Assembly: GCF_026210795.1 (NCBI RefSeq)
Contig: NC_089454.1
Coordinates: 1,612,001 to 1,676,000, forward strand
DNA length: 64,000 nt
Origin: Rhizophagus irregularis
Taxonomy: Eukaryota; Glomeromycota; Glomeromycetes; Glomerales; Glomeraceae
Direction: 5' to 3'
A program made the translations under genes and the position numbers. Below are positions 49,484 to 53,983 of the stretch, piece after piece (position 1 is the stretch's first letter; each line of letters starts with the position of its first letter). The notes beneath the pieces are model-generated. The model searched no databases and was not told where the DNA came from. It was given only the letters and a program-made list of their open reading frames with translations.

Positions 49484-50371
49484 ATGAGAGTAAAAAGTAA
49501 TAAAGTATATTTATACAACAGTTCTTTGGAATATGTTCAAACTGCAAAGTCTTGGTCAGAAGCTGCAAAAATTTCTGGAGCAGTTTCTTATAGGATCGTT
49601 TATAAATATTTAGATTCTGGAGAATTATTTGAAAATAATTGGTATTTTTTTTCTAAGGAATTTTCTGCTGAACGAATAACGGAACTTAAAGCTAATACAG
49701 ACGCAGAAAATATTCCAAGTATATAATCATCTATAAAACTTATCTTACTTATTTATTTATTTAATTTAATTAGTTTATTATAAATTTATTATTAGAATTA
49801 TTGTCAAATGAAAGTTATCAGGGTCAAGATACAACAATTTATATATATTCACGCAACAAAAATCTTTCATATCAATTAATTAAATTTACCGATAATATCC
49901 TTGAAGCAGCAATTTTTTTGAATACTTCATGTAAAATTGTTGAAAGATATTTGGATTCTAACAAGCGTTTTAAGGAGAATAATTATTTAATTCGTTCCAA
50001 ACCAATAAAAGATGGTGATGATTACATATTTTATATCAAAAATTTTACTGAATGAGCATAAATTAATTTATCAAATTACAGCAGAAGCTGAATCCGATCC
50101 CAACCCTGATCCTGAATCTAAATCTACAAGTAATTCGCCATTATCAGAATTGCCAGAAACAGTAAGAAGCAATGCAAACAAATTTAAAAATTCTAGCTAT
50201 TTTAATTTATAATTTTATTTATTATAGGACTTTATGAATTCAATAAGTCGATTTGCTTCAAATCATTACACAAATGTATATCCAATTCCAGAAATATTTG
50301 GTCAAATGGATGAAACTGCTCTGTTGACAATAAGTATTTTATTACAAGAATATATCAATCAACAAACATAA
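49484..50371 (+). CDS. Nuclear gene with two NUMOD1-like repeats, unknown function
   Basis: Four exons join in phase: 49484-49718, 49796-50014, 50082-50161 and 50228-50371, giving 225 residues. Exon 1 has KVYLYNSSLEYVQTAKSWSE then AAKISGAVSYRIVYKYLDSG and NNWYFF. Exon 2 repeats the pattern as TIYIYSRNKNLSYQLIKF, ILEAAIFLNTSCKIVERYLD and ENNYLI. This is the layout of NUMOD1: a short beta hairpin, then a helix-turn-helix that helps homing endonucleases bind DNA. No nuclease domain (GIY-YIG, LAGLIDADG, HNH) is present. Exon 3 is acidic and Pro/Ser-rich, and exon 4 is helical (DETALLTISILLQEYINQQT). Three spliceosomal introns with good GT..AG sites argue for a settled nuclear gene. The domain call is from memory of the family; function is unknown. 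It is convergent with ClpP, 15 bases apart. Confidence 0.65.
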
Positions 50372-50386
50372 TAATTAAGTTAATAT

Positions 50387-51539
50387 TTATTTTTGAATTA
50401 TTTCATCATCTTCTTTAATCTCTCTTCTTTCTAAAATTTTATCAATTAATCCAAATTCTAATGCTTCTTCAGAATTCATGAAGTGATCTCTTTCAACAGC
50501 TTTCTCAATTTCTTCTAAACTATGCTTCTTGGTATGTTTTTTATAAATCATGTTTAATCTCTCCTTAACTCTCAATATTTCTTTTGCTTGAATAGCAATA
50601 TCACTTGCTTGTCCTACTGCTCCTCCTATCGGTTGATGTATCATGATGCTTGAGTTTGGAAGTGCGTATCTTTTACCTGATTCTCCTATTAAATATTTAA
50701 ATAAGAATTAACTTAATTCATTAATAGATTTGTATTAGTTTCAATAATAATAATTAAAAATACCCGCAGCAAGTAATAATGATCCCATTGAGCAAGCTTG
50801 ACCATTACAAAGTGTTGATACTGGCGATTGAATGTACTGATAATACAAAATGTATTAATGATATAATTAATAAAATAATCATTCCATTAAGATCAAAATT
50901 TTTTCATTTAAAGAAAATCACCTGCATCTATAAAAAGAATATATATATATAATCTATATTAATATTATAGATAAAAATTATAAGGAATTTTTTTTTAAAA
51001 AAAAAATAACTTACTGTATCATAAATTGCCAGTCCTGCCGTAACACTTCCGCCAGGACTGTTAATGTATAAACTAATTGATTTTTCCGGATTTTCGGCTT
51101 CAAGAAATAATAATTGTGCTATGATTACTGCTGCTTCACTGTCTTCTATCTTTCAATACAAATTCACACATAAGTTTATATATTTCGTAAAAAGACGAGA
51201 GTTTTTCTTTTAATACATACGTGGCCATTCAAACATATAATTCGTTCTTTTAATAACCGAGAAAATATATCATATGATCGTTCTCCCCTTGACTACATTT
51301 TGTTCAAAAGAAATAAATTAAATAACAAAAACCAGCTTTATATTCTGTGTACATATATATACCGTTTGTTCAACGACAAAAGGAATTAATGATTGTGCCT
51401 TAAAACGTGAAGAACATCGACTAAAGTTATCTTCTTTTGCGTTAAATTTTACAAAAGAATGATAATCATGAAAAGTCCTTTTAGTAACATGTGAATATAA
51501 TTGACGCGTTCTTATTAATGTTCGCGTTAAAACGAACAT
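50387..51539 (-). CDS. CLPP: Mitochondrial ATP-dependent Clp protease, proteolytic subunit
   Basis: The serine protease ring of the mitochondrial ClpXP system. It starts at 51539 with an Arg-rich leader ([20 protein letters not shown]). Mature-domain exons give [47 protein letters not shown] and [20 protein letters not shown] with the catalytic Ser in CSMGS. The last exon has [20 protein letters not shown] with the catalytic His and [20 protein letters not shown] with the catalytic Asp. The triad is complete. GQACSMG replaces the usual GQAASMG. ClpP is absent from baker's yeast but present in many other fungi. It shares a 157-base divergent promoter with the MMSDH gene. Confidence 0.96.
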
Positions 51540-51696: not shown

Positions 51697-53983
51697 ATGT
51701 TGTCGTCTCGTTTAAGGTTACAGCCAAAAACCACGTCTTTAGTAAATAATATTTATGAACGTATTTGGAAAATAAATCGATCCTTTTCTACATCACACCC
51801 CTCATTACAACCTGCTTCACCGATTGATCCTCTGAAAAGTTTTCGTACAACTCCTCTTTTCATAAATGGAAAATTTGTTGAATCAATTACTAACAATTGG
51901 ATTCCTGTTCATAATCCTGTAAATGAACTGAATAAATGAAATCATTTATATTATTTTTATGTATTTCTTATTCATGAAAGTTTCATTATATTTTAAGGCA
52001 AACAACGAACTAGTAACTCTTATTCCGGAAACTACGCCGCAAGAATTGAATGACGCGGCAGAAACAGCCGCCGAAGCATTTAAATCTTGGCGAAAGTCTT
52101 CAATTCTCACAAGACAACGCATATTATTAGACTTACAACTCTTAATCCGTGAAAACACTGATAAAATAGCAAAGTCCATCACTGAAGAACAAGGTAAAAC
52201 TCTCGCTGACGCAAAAGGTGACGTGTTGCGTGGTAGACAAGTAGTAGAGCATGCGTGTGGTATTACGAATTTATTGTTGGGTGAACAATTAGCTGTATCT
52301 AATGATATGGATACATATACTATAAGAGAACCATTAGGTGTTACTGCTGGTATTTGTCCATTTAATTTTCCGGCAATGATACCATTATGGATGTTTCCTT
52401 TATCTATTGCTGCCGGAAATACAATGATTATTAAGCCAAGTGAGCGTGACCCTGGTGCTATGATGATACTTGCTCAATTGGCTAAAGAAGCTGGTGTTCC
52501 AGATGGTGTTCTAAATGTTGTTCATGGATCTGTTGAAACCGTGAATTTCTTATGCGATAATGAACATATTAAAGCAATATCTTTTGTTGGAAGTGATAAA
52601 GGTTAGAGATCAAAAGTTGTAGATTTTATTAAATAATATATTCACATATTTACGCGTAATTTATCATCATATAGCTGGAAAGTATATTCACAAACGAGGC
52701 ACTTTAAACGGAAAGAGAGTACAGGCATGTTATTATTATTTATGAAAGAAACAAATTTATATTTATCATCATTTTTTTTAAAAATAATTTTCCTTGTTAC
52801 TTTTTTAAATTGTTTTAGGCAAATTTAGGTGCAAAAAATCACGGTGTCATAATGCCAGATGCCAATAAGGTATTTAATAAAATGAGAAATTATATTCATT
52901 TAAGAAGTTGGAATTAATAGATAATTATATTATTAGAATCATACTTTAAACCAATTGGCTGGTGCTGCTTTTGGTGCCGCGGGGCAGCGTTGTATGGCGT
53001 TATCCACCGTTGTTTTTGTAGGCGAAGCAGAAGAATGGCTTCCCGAACTTGTGGAGCGCGCAAAAAAACTCAAAGTATCTGGAGGATTCGAACCAGATGT
53101 TGATGTTGGACCCTTGATTTCTCGCGAAGCAAAAGGACGTGTCGAACGGTTAATTCAAAGTGGGGTCGAACAGGGAGCTAAATTAGTATTGGATGGTCGT
53201 AATCCAAGTGTTTCTAAAGAATATAAAAATGGAAATTTTGTTGGGCCAACAATCTTGTCCAAGGTAACTACAGAAATGGATTGTTACAAGGTAAATAACA
53301 TTTTAAATTTATAGAGGAACTATTTTTCTTTTTCAAGTTTGTAATTTCGTACTATATTTATAGGAAGAAATATTTGGACCTGTTCTTGTTTGTTTAAATG
53401 TTGATACACTAGATGAAGCCATTGATTTGATCAATAAAAATCCTTATGGAAATGGAACGGCTATTTTTACAAATAGTGGTAGTAACGCTCGTTATTTCAC
53501 AAATAATATTGAAGCCGGACAAATTGGCGGTAAAGCTTTATTTTCTAATTAATGCGTAAAATACCGGAATTATTTTTATTAATTTCAGATACTTTTTATT
53601 TATAGTTAATGTGCCTATTCCTGTCCCTTTACCAATGTTTTCATTTACTGGTAACCGCGCTTCTATCCAGGGTGATATCAATTTTTGTAAGTAACAAAAT
53701 TTTTATATTTTGTATGAAATTATATTATGTATATATCTTTAATTATACCTTTATGTATCTATGACTCAAAGATGGAAAATCCGGGTTGCAATTTTATACA
53801 CAAACTAAAACAGTTACTTCTTTATGGAGACATGAAGATGTAAATCATACTAAGTCTGCCGTCAATATGGTAAGCACGAGATTAAAAATTAATTTTATAA
53901 TTTTTTTCTTTTCTTTTTTTTAATTTAATTAATAATTCAATTCTTAATCAACTCTGTATATATTATAGCCTACAATGCGATAA
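51697..53983 (+). CDS. Methylmalonate-semialdehyde dehydrogenase (ALDH6 family)
   Basis: A mitochondrial enzyme that oxidises methylmalonate or malonate semialdehyde to propionyl- or acetyl-CoA in valine and pyrimidine breakdown. Exon 1 starts [20 protein letters not shown] with an Arg-rich leader and the TSHPS-type cleavage region, then [20 protein letters not shown]. Exon 2 has [60 protein letters not shown] and the NAD-binding ISFVGSDK. Later exons give [36 protein letters not shown] with the catalytic Cys, [36 protein letters not shown] and [16 protein letters not shown], ending SAVNMPTMR. GQRCMA and [12 protein letters not shown] identify MMSDH rather than other aldehyde dehydrogenases. 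Confidence 0.96.

Follow-up and report, generated by a model that had tools for sequence, protein, structure and literature searches.

NUMOD1-type units bind DNA within homing endonucleases, where they serve as an accessory DNA grip of these selfish nucleases. A unit follows a pattern of a beta strand, an EAA helix, a second helix and a closing strand. NUMODs are described as DNA-binding domains fused C-terminally to a nuclease, and as being present in large DNA viruses too (PMC1564403). A quite different system is the upstream activating factor (UAF) of RNA polymerase I (Pol I) in yeast. In its cryo-EM structure, as reported, Rrn10 adopts an H2A-like histone fold from which helix 3 is missing, and TBP is contacted by both Rrn9 and Rrn10 (PMC9020658). 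At the locus presented here, elements resembling both systems were found side by side. Judging from the DNA, we lean towards a single-copy nuclear DNA-binding protein in which two modules of the homing-endonuclease type and an Rrn10-like half histone fold would be encoded by one gene; the protein might belong to a promoter factor of Pol I.

The window, the whole stretch of 64,000 nucleotides analysed here (G000:C26:1612001-1676000), belongs to a genome of 146.7 Mb in 32 contigs. The G+C content of the window was 22–34% (2-kb blocks) and the neighbouring genes were ordinary nuclear ones. The following features were predicted:

49484..49718, plus strand: exon 1 with NUMOD1-like repeat 1 (residues ~6-58); open frame with ATG, match to repeat 2
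49719..49795, plus strand: intron 1, GTATAT...TTAG, 77 bp, 10% G+C; its donor hexamer also occurs in ClpP intron 1
49796..50014, plus strand: exon 2 with NUMOD1-like repeat 2 (residues ~92-148); matched by home-made NUMOD1 profiles and a fungal mitochondrial unit
50015..50081, plus strand: intron 2, GTGATG...ACAG, 67 bp, 19% G+C; the least certain junction (neighbouring ClpP has GTGATT)
50082..50161, plus strand: exon 3, acidic Ser/Pro-rich linker, 41% G+C; from translation
50162..50227, plus strand: intron 3, GTAAGA...ATAG, 66 bp, 17% G+C; from splice enumeration
50228..50371, plus strand: exon 4, Rrn10-like tail with the stop codon at 50369-50371; matches to PF05234 and PDB 7z0o_F
50387..51539, minus strand: ClpP gene, convergent, six exons in the model; spliced product compared with PF00574

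Joined, the four exons comprise 678 nt and translate into 225 residues plus the stop, with no internal stop codon and with all three GT-AG introns joined in phase. The spliced structure given in the first-pass annotation, four exons with three in-phase introns, was thus upheld, although its junctions are predictions from the DNA. Splice models were enumerated with GT-AG introns of 45–110 bp, at most three per model, starting from the ATG at 49484. The 225-codon model was the longest of the 118 obtained and the sole one with at least 225 residues. Two slightly shorter ones (224 and 223 codons) differed from it in the intron 2 acceptor alone, and a further 223-codon model used an alternative intron 2 that removes part of repeat 2. 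The exons (25–41% G+C) were richer in G+C than the introns (10–19%). The two repeats aligned with each other at 38% identity over 56 residues (E 4e-5). A single nuclear gene of four exons, carrying NUMOD1-type DNA-binding repeats, is quite likely.

For the local splicing style, 12 introns were placed by eye, five in ClpP and seven in the adjacent aldehyde dehydrogenase gene, which we take to be of the MMSDH kind, guided by known family sequences and the reading frame. They measured 67–94 bp, so that the introns of the repeat gene lie at or slightly below the local range. Their donors were GTAAAT, GTATTT and GTAAGT (two each) and GTATAT, GTATGT, GTAAAG, GTTAGA, GTGATT and GCATGT (one each); the last belongs to a 94-bp MMSDH intron (window positions 52725-52818) that by eye fitted the protein best as GC-AG (GCATGT...TTAG). 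The intron 2 donor of the repeat gene is weak-looking and of an uncommon type; the stretch from 49985 to 50081 contains just two GTs, of which it is one. GTGATG is acceptable here since the local introns include GTGATT, one base away. The spliced ClpP product covered positions 2-181 of the 182 of PF00574 (272 bits), and 15 bp separate the stop codons of the two convergent genes. Upstream, on the minus strand, lies a PAP2_C-like gene (E 0.0015, below the family cut-off).

The first-pass annotation had recognised two NUMOD1-like units by eye. Judged by Pfam alone, that assignment failed: the NUMOD1 model PF07453 (37 positions) matched repeat 2 within the 225-residue product at 8 bits (E 4.9), against a curated cut-off of 22.8 bits, and the Pfam scan of the separate repeats 1 and 2 returned no PF07453 match. 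Because the Pfam match was not significant, we built our own profiles from NUMOD-type endonuclease ORFs. The first was derived from IMG/VR virus contigs; 17 domains were aligned in the final search round and the HMM was taken from the preceding one. A second, extended by members from phages and plasmids, comprised 25 domains, and a third variant also included fungal mitochondrial units. Among the 529 window ORFs of at least 40 residues, the ORF containing repeat 2 ranked first with the first two profiles (best-domain scores 20.3 and 17.7 bits), and the runner-up reached about 5 bits in either list (5.0 with the virus-contig profile). Repeat 2 alone scored 21.6 and 19.1 bits, compared with at most 10.1 and 9.1 bits for 2000 residue shuffles of it. 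With the variant that includes fungal mitochondrial units it scored 18.2 bits and its shuffles at most 9.8 bits. Repeat 1 alone scored 0.3–1.4 bits with the home-made profiles, inside its own shuffle range (maximum 11.4 bits with the virus-contig profile).

When the two repeats, aligned with each other, were compared by hhalign with the alignments of 25 and of 17 domains, the probabilities were 94.4–94.8%, whereas 200 column shuffles of the pair reached at most 18.6% against the 25-domain alignment. Taken singly, repeat 2 gave 86–92% and repeat 1 32–36%. Of the two NUMOD1-like units, then, repeat 2 was supported by profiles and the pair by hhalign, while the PF07453 cut-off and repeat 1 by itself were not on the side of the claim. 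Repeat 2 is related to NUMOD1 by profile; repeat 1 alone is not, and its assignment to NUMOD1 would run through its likeness to repeat 2.

Searches of other collections gave a best match of E 0.16 in PHROGs, no relative of the 225-residue product in viral_contigs, and, with exons 1-2 as query, three phage matches at E 7. In the genome, further PF07453 matches were short frames with no recognisable context by eye (L004-L007, L009), and one was a helix-turn-helix of a different kind (L008, by eye). BLAST of repeat 1 against its own genome returned the self-match alone at E ≤ 0.001, and exon 4 likewise matched itself alone at E ≤ 10. Repeat 2 matched itself and, weakly, four other places (E 0.09–5.4); read in frame, these were unrelated-looking proteins by eye (L011-L014) and were attributed to chance. 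The gene thus appears to be single-copy, as far as BLAST searches show.

The tail of the product pointed in another direction. Exon 4 alone matched a single Pfam family at E ≤ 10, PF05234 UAF_Rrn10 (E 0.0024, 18.5 bits, positions 70-110 of 122). This family was the top one in all four Pfam scans that contained exon 4, at 16–18.9 bits (E 0.015 for the whole protein, 0.0022 and 0.0018 for two longer exon 4 versions); the best score stayed below the curated cut-off of 20.8 bits. When exon 4 was compared with 177,635 distinct PDB sequences, one match was obtained at E ≤ 10, residues 79-107 of yeast RRN10 (7z0o chain F, E 0.75). The full-length product retrieved two antibody chains alone and not RRN10. 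The Pfam and PDB matches are two non-independent lines, but both put the same rare family first and cover the same stretch of exon 4. The product ends three residues past the stretch aligned to RRN10 79-107, which fits a truncated histone fold without helix 3. The N-terminal half of Rrn10 (profile 1-64) had no match in the product. The matches suggest a likeness of exon 4 to the part of Rrn10, a Pol I factor subunit, that forms the histone fold; the tail would be helical.

Some other candidates were set aside. UQCC2_CBP6 matched the linker and the start of exon 4 in two of the longer versions (E 0.058 and 0.0096; 14.4 and 16.9 of the 27.9 bits required), and was discounted because it ranked under Rrn10 and fell far below its own cut-off. 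Eight plasmid matches to exon 4 at E 3 were ascribed to chance. A PF05234 search of the genome was uninformative, since even exon 4 itself was missed. A six-frame Rrn9 search of the genome, with exons unjoined, gave two sub-threshold matches, neither convincing: lysine-rich low-complexity sequence and a 287-residue Ser/Asn-rich frame (L016, L017).

The uncommon intron 2 donor leaves room for two adjacent transcripts, one encoding a protein of two NUMOD1 units (exon 1 and exon 2 read on to a TGA at 50053), the other a short Rrn10-like gene. The exon 3 frame is open back to an ATG at 50012, and reading exons 3-4 from there without removal of intron 2 yields a 97-residue product that retains the Rrn10 match at E 0.0018. 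Such an arrangement would, however, require two reading frames overlapping by 44 bp on one strand. The 67-bp stretch is intron-like in size and G+C (19%), and GTGATT serves as a donor next door in the introns placed by eye. We consider two transcripts unlikely. Equally unlikely, in our estimate, is that the C-terminal helices are unrelated to Rrn10 and the product is a stand-alone nuclear NUMOD1-type DNA-binding protein, close to what the first-pass annotation had proposed. This would account for Rrn10 matches that stay below the cut-off, for a PDB match that is weak with exon 4 and absent with the full-length query, and for the lack of a convincing Rrn9 in the six-frame search; it sits poorly with Rrn10 ranking first in each of the four Pfam scans and being the sole PDB match of exon 4, on the same stretch. 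Of the earlier description, the non-nuclease tail stood, but exon 4 would be more than a helical C-terminal exon, given its suggested likeness to the histone-fold stretch of Rrn10. To call the product a stand-alone DNA-binding protein therefore probably leaves something out, and a protein fused to a histone-fold tail is the likelier case. That the Rrn10-like tail is part of the NUMOD1-repeat protein is the reading we hold, with slight preference.

No nuclease domain was recognised in the 225-residue product, as the first-pass annotation had stated: hmmscan at E ≤ 10, which covered HNH, reported UAF_Rrn10 and NUMOD1 alone. Among the best candidates scored in the genome at E ≤ 0.01, none of six GIY-YIG matches and not the one LAGLIDADG match lay on the contig of the window. 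The repeats were further compared with two mitochondrial NUMOD1 units picked by eye; the E-values are those of single comparisons. The unit of a GIY-YIG ORF (L061:36553-37218), which itself scored 36 bits with PF07453, shared 18 of 33 residues with repeat 2 (55%, E 5e-7); its alignment with repeat 1 spanned 20 residues (E 0.001). With the second unit, repeat 2 gave E 3e-5 and repeat 1 no alignment. A link to fungal mitochondrial NUMOD1 units was thus supported for repeat 2. Its homology to NUMOD1 is well supported because the profile, hhalign and pairwise results agree, and the closest type found was the fungal mitochondrial one. A homing endonuclease of organellar or phage type that lost its nuclease is the probable source of the repeats.

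The record that carries the GIY-YIG ORF, NZ_CP110133.1 (L061, 1-39093), is labelled as Peribacillus frigoritolerans Q2H1 plasmid unnamed1 and looks like a mislabelled mitochondrial genome, which we presume to be fungal from its gene style. It contains nad1 (PF00146, 306 bits), a nad4-like ORF (PF00361, 27 bits), pieces of SSU and LSU rRNA, three group I introns, pieces of group II introns and a tRNA with anticodon TCA. In addition to the gene with GIY-YIG and NUMOD1, LAGLIDADG-like frames were seen by eye.

Other genes of the homing-endonuclease type were noted in the nuclear genome. One frame of 391 codons, open under the standard genetic code (L060; G000:C12:3071489-3071788, minus strand), matched LAGLIDADG_1 at 54.6 bits (60 bits when a part of it was scanned). 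Its motifs, LAGLIEANG and LAGFCDLAG, presumably lack the usual acidic residues of LAGLIDADG, and it is possibly a second domesticated homing-endonuclease gene. An I-HmuI-type NUMOD unit (L002; G000:C8:2215414-2215488; PF22083, 34–35 bits) had HNH-like frames nearby, whose interruptions looked like introns by eye, and resembled phage HNH homing endonucleases; another place (L003; G000:C24:1330487-1330561) was similar by eye. Both had come up among the PF07453 matches in the genome. As relatives of the repeats in the window these were rejected, the unit of L002 being a NUMOD-type unit of another family and L003 similar to it by eye. Behind each of five GIY-YIG frames (L019-L023; three on G000:C10 and two on C17), CCHC repeats resembling zinc knuckles were seen by eye.

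A mitochondrial relationship could also mean that the product is a nuclear-encoded factor, derived from a mitochondrial homing endonuclease, that acts inside mitochondria, with group I introns or mtDNA as its targets. This would agree with the fungal mitochondrial origin of the most similar unit, and with the presence elsewhere in the genome of a LAGLIDADG gene that uses the standard code. The N-terminus, however, enters repeat 1 directly with no evident presequence (by eye), and the tail suggests a transcription factor of the nucleus; we regard a mitochondrial role as improbable. A recent insertion of mitochondrial DNA or a decaying pseudogene would agree with the single copy found by BLAST, but is highly improbable in view of three in-phase introns, the absence of stops, repeats diverged to 38% identity and no GIY-YIG or LAGLIDADG match reported on the contig.

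Under the favoured reading, a nuclear protein with NUMOD1-type repeats and an Rrn10-like tail, the two NUMOD1 units, as beta-hairpin/helix-turn-helix modules, would bind DNA side by side, and the flexible acidic linker would let this pair and the tail act at once. The two-helix tail might pair with a histone-fold partner, much as yeast Rrn10 is an H2A-like subunit beside Rrn9, and through this pairing the protein could join a UAF-like complex at a promoter; the simplest candidate is the promoter of the rRNA genes. Actual membership of the product in UAF is only a tentative proposal. Rather speculatively, we hypothesize that in this line of fungi the Pol I upstream activating factor gained sequence-specific DNA-reading arms that came from a homing endonuclease, an Rrn10 subunit with two NUMOD1 repeats helping to choose the rRNA promoter. 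What had first been observed at this locus was confirmed overall, and its interpretation was partly supported. A nuclease-free nuclear tandem of NUMOD1 units with such a tail would add to the ways in which host transcription factors can arise from mobile elements. It would also offer a concrete candidate for rRNA promoter recognition in a fungus of the arbuscular-mycorrhiza type. In the titles and abstracts searched, in which few subscription papers were covered, no published account of a nuclear fusion of NUMOD1 and an Rrn10-like part was found.

Compared with known systems, the repeats have the unit length and pattern of the NUMOD1 units of GIY-YIG and HNH homing endonucleases, such as the mitochondrial ORF used above and T4 MobB (L056). 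In contrast to those, the gene is nuclear, spliced and free of a nuclease, scores below the Pfam cut-off, and has an acidic linker and an Rrn10-like tail. The NUMOD gene of I-HmuI type noted above as L002 (and, by eye, the place similar to it) likewise lies on a chromosomal contig of this genome and has a NUMOD-type unit, but has HNH-like pieces adjacent, belongs to PF22083 and was not among the reported matches of the repeats. The alignment of the product with Rrn10 spans 41–46 profile positions near the C-terminus. The yeast fold is itself partial, without helix 3; where Rrn10 has its N-terminal half, the product has two NUMOD1-like units, and RRN10 (145 residues) continues beyond the aligned helix whereas the product stops soon after. 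Plant AP2 is a domesticated homing-endonuclease DNA-binding domain. There, likewise, the DNA-reading part of a selfish nuclease was reused by the host, as it may have been here with another domain, in another host lineage and with another fusion partner.
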